Shown here: one piece after another, positions 5,842-13,622 of the stretch
How the letters are laid out: the number at the start of each line of letters is the position of its first letter
Position numbering within the stretch: position 1 is the stretch's first letter
Virus record (IMG/VR): IMGVR_UViG_3300028388_004534
Span: 1-20,535 of that record
Reading direction: 5' to 3' (one strand)
DNA: 20,535 nt
Source: a virus
The notes under the pieces: model-generated
What the model saw: only the letters and a program-made list of their open reading frames with translations
Told to the model about the DNA's origin: nothing
Database searches by the model: none
Made by a program: the position numbers and the translations under genes

Positions 5842-6870
5842 ATGCCTTTTTCCGATATTTTCAACGCCAACGCATTCCATCTGGTGGAGATGACCGCGGC
5901 GGTCAACAAGGTCCCGTTTAAGCCCTCTCGCCTTGGCGAGCTGGGCATCTTTACCCCTCGCCCGCTGCGCACCGAGGTGGTTGGCATCGAGGAGCAGGAG
6001 GGCACTCTCTCCCTGATCCAGACCTCGCCGCGCGGTGCTCCGCTTGCCCAGCGCAAGAACGAGAAGCGCAAGGTACGCTACTTTCAGACCAACCGCATCG
6101 CCAAGCAGGATCATATCGAATCCTCCGAGCTGCAGTTCGTTCGCGAGTTCAACACCGATGGGCAGGTCAAGGCGCTGGTCTCCGAGATGGCGCGACGCAT
6201 GTCCGGTCCCGCAGGACTGGTGTCTGAGGTGGAACTGACCTGGGAGAGTCATCGCATGGGCGCGGTGCAGGGCAAGGTGCTTGATGCCGATGGCTCGGTC
6301 ATCATCGACTGGTTCGACGAGTGGGGCATTACAGAGCCCGCACTGATCGACTTCGACCTGGATAACGCCTCCCCAGCAAGCGGGGCACTGCGCAAGAAAT
6401 GCCAGCAGGTGGTGCGCACCATGGAAAAGGCTGCGAAGGGGGCGCGCTATGGCGTAGTGCATGGCCTTTGTGGTGAGGCCTTCTGGGACGACCTGATCGC
6501 CCACCCCGAGGTGCGGGAGACCTACAAGAACTGGGTTGCCGCTGCCGAACTTCGTGGCAGCTACGATAACGAGTCGTTCTACTTCGGCGGCATCCTGTTC
6601 GAGCGCTACCGCGGCACAGATGACGGCTCAACCGTCGCGGTAAATGCCGACCACTGCCGCTTCTTCCCAGGAGGCTCCGGCAATGGCGTGTTCGAGGTCG
6701 CTCTGAGCCCAGGCGAGTCGTTCTCGCAGATCGGCGCCATGGGTCAGCCGCTTTACTCCATGGTCGTTCCGGATCGGGAGCGCGATATGTGGGTAGATCT
6801 GGAGGTGTACAGCTATCCGCTGTTCATCTGCAAACGTCCCGAGATGCTGCTGCGTGGCAAGCGGACCTGA
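5842..6870 (+). CDS. Major capsid protein, lambda gpE family
   Basis: This 342-residue protein has the length of lambda gpE (341) and builds the head shell. Visible signatures include an N-terminal FHLVEMTAAVNKVPFKPSRLGELGIF, the TLSLIQTSPRGAPLAQRKNEKRKVRYFQTNRIA region, the RRMSGPAGLVSEVELTWESHRMGAVQGKVLDADG segment, and a C-terminal YSYPLFICKRPEMLL, all familiar in gpE homologues. The ribosome site AGAGGAGA (5828-5835) lies six bases upstream. The stop overlaps the next start as ATGA. No truncation or frameshift is seen. Confidence 0.95.
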   Translation: MPFSDIFNANAFHLVEMTAAVNKVPFKPSRLGELGIFTPRPLRTEVVGIEEQEGTLSLIQTSPRGAPLAQRKNEKRKVRYFQTNRIAKQDHIESSELQFVREFNTDGQVKALVSEMARRMSGPAGLVSEVELTWESHRMGAVQGKVLDADGSVIIDWFDEWGITEPALIDFDLDNASPASGALRKKCQQVVRTMEKAAKGARYGVVHGLCGEAFWDDLIAHPEVRETYKNWVAAAELRGSYDNESFYFGGILFERYRGTDDGSTVAVNADHCRFFPGGSGNGVFEVALSPGESFSQIGAMGQPLYSMVVPDRERDMWVDLEVYSYPLFICKRPEMLLRGKRT

Positions 6871-8922: not shown

Positions 8923-8932
8923 TCCGCCCCGG

Positions 8933-8975
8933 TGTTGATTTTTTTGACCTTAAAACAAGGCGGCAAAAATCAACA
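8933..8975 (+). repeat. A+T-rich inverted repeat after the tail tube gene
   Basis: TGTTGATTTTT (8933-8943) is the exact reverse complement of AAAAATCAACA (8965-8975), with a 21-base spacer. It starts ten bases after the tail tube stop and is followed nine bases later by a strong G+C palindrome. It could form an RNA stem or act as a binding site; nothing in the sequence decides which. Confidence 0.6.
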
Positions 8976-8983
8976 TCCACCCA

Positions 8984-9004
8984 ACGGCCCCGCGGGGCCG
9001 TTTT
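8984..9004 (+). terminator. Rho-independent-terminator-like palindrome before the lysis cassette
   Basis: Bases 8984-9001 form a perfect 18-base palindrome (ACGGCCCCG/CGGGGCCGT) followed by TTTT. It lies 21 bases before the start at 9026, which has its own TGGAGA ribosome site, so there is no room for a promoter after it. It marks the boundary between the tail tube gene and the lysis-like cassette. The T run is short, so termination may be partial. Confidence 0.7.
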
Positions 9005-9025
9005 CATTTCTGGAGACTGAAACCC

Positions 9026-9346
9026 ATGAACCCCAAGCAACTCGTTCTCACCGCCCTCGTGGCCCTCATCACCCTCACCGGCACCGTCGGCTGCATCGAC
9101 CAGATCCGGGAGGCCAAGAAGCATATCGCCGAGTCCGGCATCACCGACATCGCCATCGACGTGGCGGCCCGCGACGTGTTGGAGGCCATCGCCACGCCGG
9201 ACACCAAGGCCTCGCGGATCGCCGGCCGGGCGCTGGAGATTTATATCGACGACGCGCCGGATGGTCTGCGCCATGCCGCCCAGCAGCGCTACGGCGTGCA
9301 GCTGGCGCCTGCCGACTGGACCTGTACCCCGCCGGCGACACCGTAG
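9026..9346 (+). CDS. Small predicted lipoprotein of unknown function
   Basis: This 106-residue protein has a lipoprotein signal: Lys near the N terminus (MNPKQ), a hydrophobic core (LVLTALVALITL) and a lipobox TVGC with C23 as the first mature residue. The -3 Thr is less usual than Leu. The mature part is helical (IDQIREAKKHIAESGITDIAIDVAARDVLEAIA), then RIAGRALEIYIDDAPDGLRHAAQQRYG, and ends Thr/Pro-rich with a second Cys. It should be anchored in the inner or outer membrane facing the periplasm. The ribosome site TGGAGA at 9011-9016 supports the start. It opens the cassette that contains the lysozyme, so a role in lysis or cell-surface change is possible. I do not recognise the family. Confidence 0.75.
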   Translation: MNPKQLVLTALVALITLTGTVGCIDQIREAKKHIAESGITDIAIDVAARDVLEAIATPDTKASRIAGRALEIYIDDAPDGLRHAAQQRYGVQLAPADWTCTPPATP

Positions 9347-9351
9347 CGCAA

Positions 9352-9525
9352 ATGCCCTCCACCGACCCGCGCCTAATCCAGCCCAATACCTGGAACGAAT
9401 GGAAAGAATGCCAGCGAAAGCTGGAGGCGGCGCGCCAACGGATCGCGGAACTGGAACAAAGAATCAAGGAGCTGACCAATGACACAGCGACTGATCGAGC
9501 TGCACCGGCAGCTGGTGAAACATGA
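9352..9525 (+). CDS. Short coiled-coil peptide overlapping the lysozyme gene
   Basis: This is a 57-residue open frame (MPSTDPRLIQPNTWNEWKE...) whose middle is a strong coiled-coil candidate (CQRKLEAARQRIAELEQRIKELTND). It fills the 130-base gap between the lipoprotein and lysozyme genes and overlaps the lysozyme start by 47 bases. The ribosome site is poor, so it may depend on coupled translation from the lipoprotein stop five bases before its start. No membrane segment is present. It is a plausible small gene because the helix is well formed and the gap is otherwise unexplained; it could still be chance. Confidence 0.5.
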   Translation: MPSTDPRLIQPNTWNEWKECQRKLEAARQRIAELEQRIKELTNDTATDRAAPAAGET

Positions 9526-9904
9526 GGGGCTGCGCCTCAAGCCATACCGATGCACCGCCGGGAAACTGACCATCGGTGTGGGCCGCAACCTGGACGATGT
9601 GGGCATCACCCAGGGCGAGGCCATGGCGCTGCTGGATAACGACATCCAGCGGGTGGAGCGGGAGGTGGAGCAGGCGTTCCCCTGGTATGACCGACTGAGT
9701 GCCCCGCGCAAGAACGTGGTGCTCAACATGGTATTCAATCTCGGCCTTGCCCGGTTCCGCGGTTTCCGCAACGCCATCGCCGCCATGCAGACCGAGAACT
9801 GGGCGGACGCCGCCGCCGAGATGCTGGACAGCAAGTGGGCGCGCCAGGTCGGCAACCGAGCCCGCGAGCTGGCCCGGCAGATGGAGACGGGAGAGTACCA
9901 ATGA
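9479..9904 (+). CDS. Endolysin: GH24 (T4-type) lysozyme
   Basis: This 141-residue muramidase should cleave the glycan strands of peptidoglycan for host lysis. The family motif is present: E16 in KHEGLRLKPY, then C25 and T31 in RCTAGKLTIGVGRNLDD. The spacing equals T4 lysozyme E11, D20 and T26, with Cys replacing Asp, a variant known among phage lysozymes. Later signatures are AFPWYDRLSAPRKNVVLNMVFNLGLARFRGFRNAIAAM and SKWARQVGNRARELARQM. There is no signal peptide or hydrophobic anchor at the N terminus, so a separate holin should release it. AAGGAG at 9466-9471 is the ribosome site. The stop overlaps the next start (ATGA). Confidence 0.95.
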   Translation: MTQRLIELHRQLVKHEGLRLKPYRCTAGKLTIGVGRNLDDVGITQGEAMALLDNDIQRVEREVEQAFPWYDRLSAPRKNVVLNMVFNLGLARFRGFRNAIAAMQTENWADAAAEMLDSKWARQVGNRARELARQMETGEYQ

Positions 9905-10095
9905 TCCGGATACCGAAGAACCCGTTTCGCGGTGGCCGTCGCGAGGCGCTGCGCGTGATTGATCGGTCGATACAGGAGCGTCGCCGGATGCTGGTCGACG
10001 TGCGACAGGAGATCACCGATAAGGTGAACGAAAAGACGCGTCTCGAAAAAGAACTGTGGGCGCTGGAAGACAAGCGCCGCGAGTTGGGAGGCTGA
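9901..10095 (+). CDS. Small basic coiled-coil protein in the lysis cassette
   Basis: This 64-residue protein starts at the ATG overlapping the lysozyme stop. It has a short basic N terminus (MIRIPKNPFRGGRREALR) and a long amphipathic helix rich in Glu, Arg and Lys (IDRSIQERRRMLVDVRQEITDKVNEKTRLEKELWALEDKRREL). No membrane segment or signal is visible, so it is not a typical inner-membrane spanin despite lying between lysozyme and lipoprotein. The next gene starts one base after its stop. I do not recognise a family; self-association or pairing with another coiled-coil product nearby is an inference. Confidence 0.7.
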   Translation: MIRIPKNPFRGGRREALRVIDRSIQERRRMLVDVRQEITDKVNEKTRLEKELWALEDKRRELGG

Positions 10096-10096
10096 C

Positions 10097-10654
10097 ATGC
10101 GCTACATGATCCGCATGGTCCTGATGATCGCCGCCGTGGCCCTGTCCGGGTGCGCTACCGATGCCGAGCTGCGTGCCAGGGTGGCGACTGCCAATATCGA
10201 GATGGCCAAGCGCGCGCCCCAACTGCTGCTGGATGCGGCGATCCCTGTCCCGGGGAGTGACCGCGTGATGACGATCAAGGTGGCCAATCCGGACGGCGCA
10301 AGTAGGGCAATCCACGCCCCGCAGAACCCGTGGGCCGGCGTAGCATCCGACGCGCTCAAGACCGTTGGCACCGTGGGCGGCATCGTCGCCGGCGGCCATG
10401 CCGCTCGGTGGCTCGTCGAGAGTACCGGGGCGGGTATCGCCGGGGCGTTGCAGCATGTGCCAGATCCGGTCCAATTCGACCAGCCCGCGCCCGTGGTGGT
10501 GGAGCAGCCAGCGCCTGCCATCGTGGAGCAGCCCAGCCCGACCGTGGTAGAGCAACCCGCGCCGATCATCGTACCACCCACCGACCCGGTAATCGTCACC
10601 CAGCCGGACCCGATCATCGTAGAGCCGAGCTATCCGCCGGTGGGAGAGTTGTGA
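10097..10654 (+). CDS. Lipoprotein with octapeptide proline-rich stalk; candidate outer spanin
   Basis: This 185-residue protein has a clear lipoprotein signal (MRYMIRMVLMIAAVALSGCA) with lipobox LSGC and C19. A helical section follows (ATDAELRARVATANIEMAKRAPQLLLDAA), then a Gly/Ala-rich, weakly hydrophobic stretch (about 88-118). The C-terminal third is seven tandem octads (residues 127-182) on the pattern V-E-Q-P-A-P-x-V/I. Such a stalk should be extended and could reach across much of the periplasm. Proline-rich lipoproteins next to a lysozyme recall outer spanins such as lambda Rz1, but this one is much longer, and no membrane-anchored coiled-coil partner of the usual Rz type is seen. It may instead be a lipoprotein that alters the cell surface. 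The ribosome site is GGGAGG at 10086-10091. Confidence 0.8.
   Translation: MRYMIRMVLMIAAVALSGCATDAELRARVATANIEMAKRAPQLLLDAAIPVPGSDRVMTIKVANPDGASRAIHAPQNPWAGVASDALKTVGTVGGIVAGGHAARWLVESTGAGIAGALQHVPDPVQFDQPAPVVVEQPAPAIVEQPSPTVVEQPAPIIVPPTDPVIVTQPDPIIVEPSYPPVGEL
10475..10642 (+). repeat. Seven tandem 24-bp units encoding a proline-rich octapeptide
   Basis: The stretch encodes FDQPAPVV, VEQPAPAI, VEQPSPTV, VEQPAPII, VPPTDPVI, VTQPDPII and VEPSYPPV without interruption. The inner units are most alike at protein and DNA level and the outer ones have drifted. Such repeats can expand or contract by recombination or replication slippage. Confidence 0.85.
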
Positions 10655-10794
10655 TGGTGACCGAAATCACAAACAGGGCTATGTTTTTTATTATTTTCTT
10701 CGCGCTTGCTGTGATTGCAATAGCCTCGCCATCTATAGCCGTTAGTCAGTGCATTAAGCTGTCGAGATTGGCGCAAAAGAACGGGGTACAGTAA
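10654..10794 (+). CDS. 46-residue single-span membrane peptide; holin-type candidate
   Basis: This short gene starts at the ATG overlapping the lipoprotein stop and ends in TAATG with the next gene. It encodes MVTEITNRA, then a hydrophobic span of about 20 residues (MFFIIFFALAVIAIASPSIAV) and a short basic tail (KLSRLAQKNG). Its DNA is A+T-richer than the genes around it, partly because of the Phe/Ile codons. Its place after a lysozyme and before another membrane protein fits a small holin, antiholin or inner-membrane partner of the lipoprotein. No family motif is recognised, so the role is inferred. Confidence 0.68.
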   Translation: MVTEITNRAMFFIIFFALAVIAIASPSIAVSQCIKLSRLAQKNGVQ

Positions 10795-11099
10795 TGACGG
10801 ATTACGATTTCCAGACCGAGATGCTCAAGGGCCTTGGTCGCATCGAGGAGGTGCAACGCAAGCAGACCGAGCTGCTTGAGCGCCTGATAACCGTGGAGGC
10901 AGACCAGCGCGGCGTGCGCGATGACGTGTCCGAGATCCGCCGCGCCCACGACGAGTTGTTTTCCCGGCTGCGCAGCCTGGAGGAGGAACTGAGCCAGTGG
11001 CGCACAGTGCGCAAAATTATTGCTTGGCTCGGCCCCACCGGCGCGATTGCCGCCGCTATCGCGTTCTACCAGTCCACCGGCGGCGCTGGAGGAGTCTGA
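10794..11099 (+). CDS. Coiled-coil protein with C-terminal membrane segment; XhlA-like holin-associated candidate
   Basis: This 101-residue protein starts in TAATG with the upstream gene. Its first 75 residues form a helical coiled coil (MLKGLGRIEEVQRKQTELLERLITVEADQRGVRDDVSEIRRAHDELFSRLRSLEEELSQW). A C-terminal hydrophobic span follows (KIIAWLGPTGAIAAAIAFY) and then a Gly-rich end. That order, coil then tail anchor, matches XhlA-type proteins that work with a holin to deliver an endolysin in some Gram-positive phages; similar small proteins occur beside lysozymes in other prophages. The lysozyme here needs an export route, so a holin or holin partner role is reasonable. Similarity is by architecture only. 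Confidence 0.75.
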   Translation: MTDYDFQTEMLKGLGRIEEVQRKQTELLERLITVEADQRGVRDDVSEIRRAHDELFSRLRSLEEELSQWRTVRKIIAWLGPTGAIAAAIAFYQSTGGAGGV

Positions 11100-11102
11100 C
11101 CC

Positions 11103-11498
11103 ATGACCGCAAACGTGCTCAACGCCCGCCTGCCGGCCGCGGCCAACATCCTGCTCGTGCGCGGAGAGGACTTCCGCGCCCAGTTTGCGCTGGAGAATAG
11201 CGACGGCACCGCAGTGGGTTGGGCGGGCTACAGCGCAGAGGCTGAGATCGTCGACGATGCCGGGAACGTCCTGCTGGCCATCCCGGCTGACGCGGGCGCG
11301 GTCACTCTCGACACCAGCGACCCGCCAACCGGGCGCGTCACAATCACCCTGCCACGCGCTACCGTGGACGCGCTCACCTGGACCTGCGGATCGTTTCGGC
11401 TGTGGGTCACTGACCCGCTGGGCGAGCGCTGGCGGCTAGTCGCCGGCCTGGCTGTCGTATCTGATGGAGGTATCGGCCAATGTCCGACGCAGATCTGA
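11103..11498 (+). CDS. Ig-like beta-sandwich protein; tail-fibre adaptor candidate
   Basis: This 131-residue protein has a strand-rich layout. It opens RLPAAANILLVRGEDFRAQFALENSDGTAVGWAGYSAEAEIVDDAGNVLLAIPAD, then DPPTGRVTITLPRATVDALTWTCGSFRLWVTDPLGERWRLVAGLAVVSDG. The order (RGEDF, a GYSAEAEI strand, a GRVTITLP strand, and a final FRLWVTDPLGERWRLVAG hairpin) recurs in small phage proteins just upstream of fibre genes and resembles BppU-type N-terminal domains that attach fibres to the baseplate. The strong ribosome site GGAGGAG (11088-11094) suggests high expression. It overlaps the fibre gene by 19 bases. The adaptor role is inferred from position and pattern. Confidence 0.72.
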   Translation: MTANVLNARLPAAANILLVRGEDFRAQFALENSDGTAVGWAGYSAEAEIVDDAGNVLLAIPADAGAVTLDTSDPPTGRVTITLPRATVDALTWTCGSFRLWVTDPLGERWRLVAGLAVVSDGGIGQCPTQI

Positions 11499-12862
11499 TC
11501 AAGCGAGCGTCCCTGCCGATTGTCCGCATCGACCAGGACGGCACGCGGGTGATCCGCGTCTCGCAGGGTCTGACAGGCCCGACTGGTCCCGCGGCGGAGA
11601 GCGCAGCCCTGTCTGATGCTGACCCCGCCGTGCTGGGCGTAGCGGCCCCCGGGGTGTCTGCCGATGCGTCCCGCGCCGATCACGTCCACCCAATGCCGAG
11701 CGCCGCAGACGTGGACGCAGACCCCGCCGGCACCGCGCTAGACGCCATGAATGCCCACCTCACCGCGCCCGACCCGCACGGACAATACCTGAGAGCGACT
11801 GAGGGCGACGCTGCCTACGAGCCGATCGGCACTGCCTCCGCTGGTGATGCACAGCACCTGCTCGACTACGACCACCCGGCCCTTACTGCCCATATCGCCG
11901 CAACGGGCAACCCACACAGCACCGCCCCCTCTGATCTGGGACAGGACGGCGCAACCGATGGACAGGCCATTATCTGGGATGATGCCACTGGGCAGTGGAC
12001 GCCGGGCACGGTGGCGTCGTATTGGACCGAAGACGCGGTTAACGGCTATCTCTATCCGTCTGATCTGACGGGTAATGTGGGGATAGGGACTGATACGCCA
12101 GAACATAAACTTTCGGTTATTAGAGAACTAAATATACAAAAACAAGCTATATTTGCAGATGCACCATCTTCATCGACTTCGTTAGGCGTTACTTATGCTG
12201 GGATATACTTAGCAAACCAAAAGGCAATTAACAACAATTGGGTTAGATTAAATTTTGGAACAGGGCACTCGAATTCGGTTGGGGCAATGGGGATACAAAT
12301 AACCGACCATGCTAATAGATACGGTAAGTTCTTCATAAGCTCTCAGGGGGCTGGTAATCATGTCTCAGACGTAAATTTGTTAATTGATGAGACTGGAAAT
12401 GTAGGGATAGGAGAAATAACCCCAACAGCCCGTCTTCACGTAGTCGGCCCAGGAAACGACTCACTAACTTACTCGACCAAGTTCCAGGATGGTGACGAAA
12501 ATACCGCGTTATCTGTGCGAGATGATAGAGCGGTATTTATCTCTACTGTAGAGTCGGAGCCGCTAGATGCAGGGATGGAAACACCGGCGGCTGGCGCTCG
12601 TCTGACAGTGGACTGGTGGGACGATACGACCGGCATCTACCGCCGAAAACAAATCGACTCCCTGGGCGTTACGGACTCCGCGCCGCTGACGCATATTGCG
12701 CCCTGCCTGGTATCTGAGTTGCCAAGCGCATCAACGGCTGGGGCTGGGGTGCGCGGAATGGTGACAGACGCAAATGCAACGGCATTTGGCAGCGTTGTCG
12801 CTGGCAGTGGGGCAAACACCGTGCCAGTTTACTCTGACGGCACTGATTGGAGGATTGGATGA
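11480..12862 (+). CDS. Tail fibre / receptor-binding protein
   Basis: This 460-residue protein is modular. The N terminus has a short collagen-like GLTGPTGPA and the fibre motif GVSADASRADHVHP. A His-rich shaft follows (PHGQYL, DYDHPALTAHIAATGNPHST), which in other fibres binds metal along the trimer. Two NVGIG repeats (GNVGIGTDTPEHKLSV at 198-213, GNVGIGEITPTARLHV at 306-321) flank a segment of about 90 residues. The C terminus (LVSELPSASTAGAGVRGMVTDA...VPVYSDGTDWRIG) is a widespread fibre ending. Bases from about 12100 to 12560 are markedly A+T-rich compared with both flanks, with AGA/ATA codons otherwise scarce here, suggesting acquired receptor-binding sequence. The ribosome site is TGGAGGT (11465-11471). 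It lies before the tape measure, an unusual place for a fibre. Confidence 0.88.
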   Translation: MSDADLIKRASLPIVRIDQDGTRVIRVSQGLTGPTGPAAESAALSDADPAVLGVAAPGVSADASRADHVHPMPSAADVDADPAGTALDAMNAHLTAPDPHGQYLRATEGDAAYEPIGTASAGDAQHLLDYDHPALTAHIAATGNPHSTAPSDLGQDGATDGQAIIWDDATGQWTPGTVASYWTEDAVNGYLYPSDLTGNVGIGTDTPEHKLSVIRELNIQKQAIFADAPSSSTSLGVTYAGIYLANQKAINNNWVRLNFGTGHSNSVGAMGIQITDHANRYGKFFISSQGAGNHVSDVNLLIDETGNVGIGEITPTARLHVVGPGNDSLTYSTKFQDGDENTALSVRDDRAVFISTVESEPLDAGMETPAAGARLTVDWWDDTTGIYRRKQIDSLGVTDSAPLTHIAPCLVSELPSASTAGAGVRGMVTDANATAFGSVVAGSGANTVPVYSDGTDWRIG

Positions 12863-13344
12863 TTGAAGAACTTGTGATTGAGCTGCCGGACGGGCTAACC
12901 GTTGACGGCCTGTATCGAGCTGCGGCGATCAAATCGGGATGGACGCCAGAGACGACGCAGCTGGGAGCGGAGCAGGAGCATGTCGCGGCGGATGCCACGG
13001 CGGCGCGGGCGTTTGTCGACGACCTGCGGGTGAGCGGTGGAGAGCTGATTCCGCCGGCCCGGCAGGAACAGGATGGCTCGTTTATCATTACATACCGACC
13101 GGCAGAGACTGTCGCCAACCCCGTGGACATCCTAGCCGCAGGGCAGGCCGCAATCGAGGAGCGGTTTCGAGAGGAGGCGATTGATGCGATTGAGGCGGTT
13201 GAGGCGGCAACACCTATCCCAATGCCAACGGAGCCGATGACCGCAACACAGCTGGAGACGTATATCCAGGAGAAGCGGCAGGAGGCGCGTGGGGAAGCAG
13301 AGAAAATGGTCCGCGGCAAGGGGCGACTGCGGAGGCCGCTGTGA
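12859..13344 (+). CDS. Unrecognised 161-residue protein between fibre and tape measure
   Basis: The start at 12859 overlaps the fibre stop (ATGA) and follows GGAGG at 12849-12853; an upstream in-frame ATG at 12847 would precede that site. The N-terminal half looks globular (IEELVIELPDGLTVDGLYRAAAIKSGWTPE, then DGSFIITYRPAETVANPVDILAAG). The C-terminal half is helical and charged (AAIEERFREEAIDAIEAVEAA, ...LETYIQEKRQEARGEAEKMVRGKGRLRRPL) with a basic end. Its coupling to the fibre suggests a fibre partner or fibre-assembly helper. Its location just before the tape measure is also where tail-assembly chaperones sit. No known motif supports either, so the function is open. Confidence 0.75.
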   Translation: MIEELVIELPDGLTVDGLYRAAAIKSGWTPETTQLGAEQEHVAADATAARAFVDDLRVSGGELIPPARQEQDGSFIITYRPAETVANPVDILAAGQAAIEERFREEAIDAIEAVEAATPIPMPTEPMTATQLETYIQEKRQEARGEAEKMVRGKGRLRRPL

Positions 13345-13372
13345 TAATTACTGCTAATTCCACCCGGATGGC

Positions 13373-13448
13373 TTTTATTGCCTGAACCAAAATGCCCAAC
13401 CAACACGAAGTCAAGCTCCTGCTCTCCACCGAGACCACCGGCGAGGGC
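13373..13448 (+). repeat. Upstream copy of duplicated tape-measure leader and 5' end
   Basis: This 76-base segment matches 13547-13622 with one difference (G at 13415, A at 13589). It covers TTTTATTGCCTGAACCAAA, the ATG and the first 19 codons of the tape measure gene. The two copies are 174 bases apart. Downstream the match decays over a few codons (CAGATCCGGAAT against AATATCCGCATT). Confidence 0.95.
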
Positions 13449-13463
13449 CAGATCCGGAATTAA
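13392..13463 (+). pseudogene. Truncated duplicate of tape measure 5' end
   Basis: The ATG at 13392 reads MPNQHEVKLLLSTETTGEG, identical to the start of the tape measure protein, then QIRN and a TAA at 13461. It is in the same frame as the intact gene at 13566 but is stopped. The preceding hairpin is degraded (CCACCCGGATGGCTTTT) compared with the intact terminator before 13566. It is most simply a recombination or duplication relic; a functional 23-residue leader peptide is a less likely alternative. Confidence 0.8.
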
Positions 13464-13500
13464 AGGGGCCAGGCACGAATTAAACGGACCCAGTAAACGC
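13451..13500 (+). repeat. Short spacer with GAATTAAA direct repeats, REP-like
   Basis: GAATTAAA occurs at 13457-13464 and 13477-13484, each followed by a G/C-rich block (GGGGCCAGG, then CGGACCC). From memory, the AATTAAAGGGGxCAGGCACGAATT style resembles repeats linked to REP-associated tyrosine transposases in gammaproteobacteria. No transposase gene is present in the window. The resemblance is unverified. Confidence 0.4.
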
Positions 13501-13526
13501 ATCCATAACAACCCATCCTCCACACC

Positions 13527-13550
13527 AAAACCCGCCCTGGCGGGTTTTTT
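13527..13550 (+). terminator. Rho-independent-terminator-like hairpin before the tape measure gene
   Basis: CCCGCC (13531-13536) and GGCGGG (13539-13544) pair across a CT loop, flanked by AAAA and followed by six T. It lies 15 bases before the tape measure ATG, with no recognisable ribosome site or promoter between. Its sequence and the trailing ATTGCCTGAAC recur before 16595 and, in part, before 3856. Confidence 0.75.
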
Positions 13551-13622
13551 ATTGCCTGAACCAAAATGCCCAACCAACACGAAGTCAAACTCCTGCTCTC
13601 CACCGAGACCACCGGCGAGGGC
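13547..13622 (+). repeat. Downstream (intact) copy of the tape-measure leader duplication
   Basis: This is the partner of 13373-13448 and forms the real leader and first codons of the tape measure gene. One mismatch separates the copies over 76 bases, so the duplication is recent or kept similar by recombination. Confidence 0.95.

Follow-up and report, generated by a model that had tools for sequence, protein, structure and literature searches.

An octad-tailed lipoprotein of phage lysis regions with a possible accessory role beside the spanins

Introduction

Rupture of the outer membrane is a poorly understood step in the lysis of Gram-negative hosts by phages. Among the closest described systems is the outer spanin Rz1 of phage lambda, an outer-membrane-type lipoprotein with a proline-rich mature part that is encoded in the lysis cassette. 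The proline-rich region of Rz1 is described as essential, and the authors compare it with fusion motifs (PMC5295617). In a survey of 677 genomes, a spanin was not found in 91 genomes, and 31 of those carried a lone lipoprotein without a partner (PMC6139136). Phage-coded and variable lipoproteins also act in superinfection exclusion, such as T5 Llp and T1 Cor. T5 Llp is periplasmic and its gene lies beside that of the receptor-binding protein, and lipoproteins of this kind also counter adsorption to debris (PMC9586334).

The DNA described here (the window) is a stretch of 20,535 nucleotides from a virus record of IMG/VR. It contains a lipoprotein gene with a tail of eight-residue repeats (octads) which is compared below with these systems.

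Sequence features of the lipoprotein

The features of the lysis region are the following:

9026..9346, + strand: putative lipoprotein of 106 aa with TVGC, the second in this region, upstream of the lysozyme; from the sequence, phrog_10733 E 0.0056
9479..9904, + strand: phage lysozyme of the GH24 family, the endolysin, without a visible signal peptide; PF00959 E 3e-16, PHROG endolysin E 3e-24
9901..10095, + strand: charged, coiled-coil-like protein of 64 aa between lysozyme and lipoprotein, no transmembrane segment; from the sequence
10097..10654, + strand: gene of the octad-tailed lipoprotein (185 aa); reading frame with lipobox and period 8, homologues L074 (48-49%) and L109 (31%)
10142..10153, + strand: lipobox LSGC with lipidated Cys19, +2 residue Ala; from the sequence and a strict lipobox scan
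10154..10474, + strand: variable head, residues 20-126; AF2 model and head homology to L071/L074 and L109
10475..10642, + strand: seven octads, residues 127-182, predicted to be without secondary structure; from the sequence, codon test and AF2
10654..10794, + strand: 46-aa protein with a single transmembrane segment, putative holin-like candidate; start overlaps the lipoprotein stop (TGATG)
10794..11099, + strand: 101-aa coiled coil with a C-terminal transmembrane segment and weak XhlA/holin resemblance; XhlA match that misses the cut-off (E 0.007) and phrog_689 holin match (E 0.033)

The ORF, its lipobox and its octads were confirmed where the initial annotation had placed them, and the neighbouring products at 9901, 10654 and 10794 that it had named were present as ORFs. 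The ORF at 10097-10654 was the only one on either strand of the window to pass the strict lipobox scan, which it did with each of two alternative start codons. Its signal peptide was the only hydrophobic segment above threshold. The protein thus shares the N-terminal lipoylation signal of the T1 gp11-type unimolecular spanin but lacks a C-terminal transmembrane domain. By the +2 residue rule for lipoprotein sorting, the alanine behind Cys19 suggests that the protein is sorted to the outer membrane.

The octads read FDQPAPVV, VEQPAPAI, VEQPSPTV, VEQPAPII, VPPTDPVI, VTQPDPII and VEPSYPPV. All seven units were exactly eight residues long with no indels, as had been claimed, whereas the V-E-Q-P start that was also claimed for them is found in only three (at residues 135, 143 and 151), the others being degenerate. 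Identity at lag 8 was found in 24 of 51 residue pairs of the tail, a score that was reached by none of 10,000 shuffles at lag 8 and by none of 10,000 at any lag from 1 to 24. At the DNA level, identity at lag 24 was 0.59 compared to 0.62 ± 0.03 expected when the protein is kept and codons are random, and 15 of 23 same-residue pairs had identical codons (11.7 expected). Since a random choice of synonymous codons would make the octad DNA at least as similar, the protein pattern was kept while the DNA drifted. The octad units are old at the DNA level, with no trace of recent slippage in this gene, and an expansion by recent slippage was set aside by the codon test. A reading of the octads as a tandem TonB-box-like array, which they may resemble, was also set aside.

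The AF2 model of the protein had a mean pLDDT of 62, which is low confidence, with a head of one helix, short strands and two helices and a tail without secondary structure. A fold search with this model produced no match at E ≤ 0.001 and the best hit of a PDB profile search had an E value of 0.48. The two AF2 models obtained (pLDDT 62 and 42) are too poor for fold claims.

Family of octad-tailed lipoproteins

Searches of family databases with the lipoprotein gave a Pfam match to the PXPV repeat (PF12778), likewise rich in proline and valine, on residues 121-143 that was below threshold (E 0.0038, score 17.5 against a cut-off of 23.1), PHROG matches of E 0.06 or worse at the N-terminal end only, and no NCBIfam match. 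The family is described by no Pfam, PHROG or NCBIfam family and is so far unnamed. Titles and the starts of abstracts in the open-licence PMC literature yielded no phage repeat lipoprotein or extra lysis lipoprotein matching it. It is placed here among the lysis-region lipoproteins of phages and is not classed as a spanin.

By tblastn against 50,697 phage records, neither the whole protein nor its head had a match, and the same was found for three relatives (L091, L074 and L094) against phage records. The TVGC lipoprotein at 9026-9346, which is unrelated to the octad protein, also had no phage match by tblastn. Scans of viral contigs for close relatives of the lipoprotein, the 1129-aa tail protein, the protein at 10794, the LtfC-like protein and the capsid protein found nothing, and the sole match of a genome-contig scan (L064) was rejected because its frame lies on the opposite strand of an ABC-transporter-like gene in an archaeal MAG. 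Among lysozyme relatives, 26 of the 54 viral loci and the named phages Pq0, AS1 and ZP9 were filtered for ORFs with a lipobox or rich in proline in a region that began 300 bases upstream of the lysozyme and ended 2 kb downstream, and none of these had an octad lipoprotein (PHS21 and C72C1 were covered by annotation only).

Relatives were found by scanning IMG/VR with a degenerate DNA pattern for the tail, P-[A/D]-P-[V/I]-[V/I]-V-x-[Q/E]-P-[A/D]-P, in which a few other residues were also admitted. A total of 45 stretches matched, 38 of them in octad-tailed proteins. A lipobox was visible in 35 of these (34 by script and LMGC of L086 by eye), and the three without one (L098, L103 and L110) were cut by contig ends or decayed. 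The seven remaining matches (L075, L078, L090, L096, L099, L105 and L112) are not octad lipoproteins and were dropped. In L112 (3065-3096) a glycine-zipper-like non-lipoprotein ORF has a similar PVVVQQPAPVVV tail, so that this type of tail is not confined to phage octad lipoproteins.

The 38 proteins reduced to 21 distinct mature sequences, L086 included. The window protein has the two features that define the family, a lipobox and a C-terminal Pro/Val tail of period 8. Its closest relative was L074 with its identical copies and a distant homologue was L109 (E 1e-8). In a set of 22 sequences, homology of the head extended to L071/L074 (E 2e-18) and L109 (E 1.5e-7). Heads differed strongly between groups while the eight-residue period was common to the family: the top lag was 8 in 20 of 22 sequences examined, window included, the exceptions being L090, a non-member, and L108, which is cut by a contig end and was left unscored.

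Tail length ranged from 23 residues (L081 and L094) up to 105 (L104), with tail starts set approximately by a regular expression and L108 (cut at 16) left out. Chains of prolines spaced by 8 counted 3 to 11, which bears out the expectation that the octad number varies between related phages; the chain of 11, in the octad lipoprotein of L104 (3857-4711), was the longest seen. The initial annotation had proposed a periplasm-spanning stalk of about 17 nm. The figure is arithmetically correct for a fully extended chain, but the proposal is weakened by a tail length that is not conserved, at about 23 to 105 residues. Since tail lengths vary among the relatives, a fixed-length ruler across the periplasm is unsupported and was set aside. 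The sequences support instead a putative extended arm of variable length.

Gene context

The genes beside the octad gene in relatives encode endolysins of GH24 (L107 and L081), GH108 (L072), GH19 (L084), M15 (L085) and SLT (L108) type, and PHROG endolysin 465 in L086. A confirmed endolysin lay within 2.2 kb of the octad gene in 11 of 14 lineages compared to 2.5 expected (P 4e-7), an estimate that assumes even placement; the endolysin queries were drawn from the neighbours themselves. Without four similar type-A entries the count was 7 of 10 compared to 1.6 expected (P 1e-4). Lineages were counted on contigs of at least 11 kb, and endolysins were confirmed by a Pfam or PHROG match or by phmmer similarity to an endolysin confirmed in this way. 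The lineages not counted as confirmed were L074, L109 and L094/G016. The neighbour in L074 is M15-like by eye only, with no Pfam or PHROG match; the space separating it from the lipoprotein holds a PHROG holin match (E 0.0026). No endolysin was found near the octad gene of L109. In G016 the octad gene lies 4.4 kb from an M15 endolysin with Ig-domain fibre-like genes between. The stop or start of the octad gene overlaps the endolysin gene in L085, the i-spanin gene in L107 and L110 and a transmembrane protein gene in the window, and the gene order in L107 and L108/L110 is endolysin, octad lipoprotein, spanin pair. Overall, the proposal of a lysis-region lipoprotein with a probably extended tail is supported.

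The main rival is a superinfection-exclusion or receptor-shielding lipoprotein like T5 Llp or T1 Cor, which is considered unlikely, if less so than the other rivals; it corresponds to the surface-change lipoprotein named in the initial annotation. Such a protein, anchored in the outer membrane, would jam the phage's own receptor from the periplasm and spare the progeny from binding debris. A variable head on a shared tail would suit varied receptors, and fibre-like genes adjoin the octad gene in many records, among them tail-fibre-like genes in L072, L077, L084, L091, L104 and G016; fibre-like genes also follow it in the window. The octad genes thus resemble those of Cor and Llp in lying near late and fibre-like genes. 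However, the match to the Cor family (phrog_1119, E 0.062) covers residues 4-32 only, mostly signal peptide, no Llp-like head was found, and the long octad tail sets the protein apart from Cor and Llp. In addition, the octad genes of L074, L081, L085, L107 and L108 lie among lysis genes with no recognised tail fibre gene among the neighbours read, which argues for a link to lysis genes that is independent of fibre genes. A lysis role and receptor shielding could not be separated by sequence.

Other observations concern the phage itself. The GH24 lysozyme at 9479-9904 reads YRCTAGKLTIG, with Cys at the position of the usual catalytic Asp (T4 Asp20). Cys also occupies this position in L081 and in Shewanella phage ZP9, and Asp does in Pseudoalteromonas phage Pq0. 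Lysis and fibre-like genes occupy about 4.6 kb (8923-13565) between the major tail protein and the tape measure, and the tape measure begins at most a few hundred bases after the tail gene before it in Marinobacter phage AS1, Curvibacter phage PCA1 and Pseudomonas phage Lodos. An LtfC-like beta-sandwich protein (11103-11498) precedes a fibre-like gene and has weak similarity (32%) to proteins of Synechococcus phage S-CAM1. The capsid protein (5842-6870) is closest to Synechococcus phages Ssp-JY39 and Yong-M2-251 (48%) and the lysozyme to marine gammaproteobacterial phages, which suggests a mosaic phage.

Spanin genes

The initial annotation had suggested an unusual outer spanin. In this explanation, the lipoprotein would pair with an unrecognised inner-membrane partner. 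It is encoded in a lysis cassette, carries an N-terminal lipoylation signal and is rich in proline like Rz1, whose proline-rich region is essential (PMC5295617), and lone lipoproteins with no i-spanin were met in 31 genomes of the survey (PMC6139136). Within the window, a 20.5 kb fragment of a phage genome, no canonical spanin pair was found by a detector that recovered two of three control loci. However, no protein with an N-terminal transmembrane segment and a periplasmic coiled coil was seen beside the octad gene there, and the detector found no paired adjacent or overlapping i-spanin gene on this fragment; spanin genes may still lie elsewhere in this phage.

Cassettes in which the octad lipoprotein is the outer spanin should contain no second one. 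The detector was run on 20 stretches of 13 records and the window (345 kb, several records partly read), with settings relaxed after two stricter runs which both missed L085 and the first of which also missed L107. Three pairs were found (L107, L085 and L108/L110) and none in reversed sequence; one further match, L129, was judged by eye to be an antisense artefact and left out. No spanin pair was seen in the other records, which are mostly fragments. In L107 a GH24 lysozyme and the octad lipoprotein are followed by an i-spanin-like protein with an N-terminal transmembrane segment and an overlapping 81-aa Rz1-like lipoprotein; as the i-spanin has no PHROG match, the call rests on topology and the overlapping lipoprotein. 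L108/L110 is a single contig of 44 kb with a 127-base overlap between its two ends. Its octad stop overlaps the start of an i-spanin gene (phrog_214 Rz-like spanin, E 1e-4), inside which a 97-aa lipoprotein is encoded. In L085 the order is M15 endolysin, octad lipoprotein, holin-like gene, short ORF and i-spanin (phrog_1403 Rz-like spanin, E 4e-4), with a gene for an 83-aa proline-rich lipoprotein embedded in the last.

Since these three relatives have another Rz1-like lipoprotein in or overlapping the i-spanin gene, the octad lipoprotein is, as judged from gene content, additional to the spanins in at least L107, L085 and L108/L110. The outer-spanin proposal is weakened by these complete pairs and is the least probable of the explanations considered. 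The octad protein also differs from Rz1 in being larger, with a period-8 Val/Pro tail and a separate head.

A relative of the L085 cassette (L147, in G018) has kept a GH108 endolysin, a holin-like gene and a spanin pair, while all that is left of its octad gene is an open frame of 36 residues that includes the end of the tail. This stub (6425-6499) lies between the endolysin and the holin-like gene. The octad gene is thus dispensable or replaceable in G018, and the cassette seems recombined because that of L085 has M15 at the same place. The decayed copy, together with widely variable tail lengths, diverse heads and the similar tail of the L112 ORF, would suit a moron-like envelope or virion lipoprotein that is neutral for lysis and merely sits in a variable spot near the late genes. 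This explanation is quite improbable, a little less so than an outer spanin, and against it stands the close linkage of the octad gene, seen repeatedly, with spanins and with endolysins from five families.

Discussion

The explanation tentatively preferred, with a probability of about 0.4, is an outer-membrane lipoprotein with an accessory role in the phage lysis region, which would act in addition to the spanins and not as one of them. The lipoprotein would be made together with the endolysin and the holin-like gene products. The lipid on Cys19 would anchor it in what is probably the inner leaflet of the outer membrane, with the variable head near the membrane, and the Pro/Val octad tail would stretch into the periplasm as an extended arm directed at the peptidoglycan. 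At lysis this arm may engage peptidoglycan or outer-membrane partners, and it would most likely help to loosen either the outer membrane itself or the connection between this membrane and the peptidoglycan as the endolysin acts. By analogy with the essential, fusion-motif-like proline-rich region of Rz1, an outer-membrane-perturbing role of the arm would be plausible at most.

The octad family occurs with endolysins of five families and both with and without canonical spanins, and it could give some orphan lipoproteins a testable identity. The cases in which the two coexist allow the function of the octad lipoprotein to be separated from that of the spanins.
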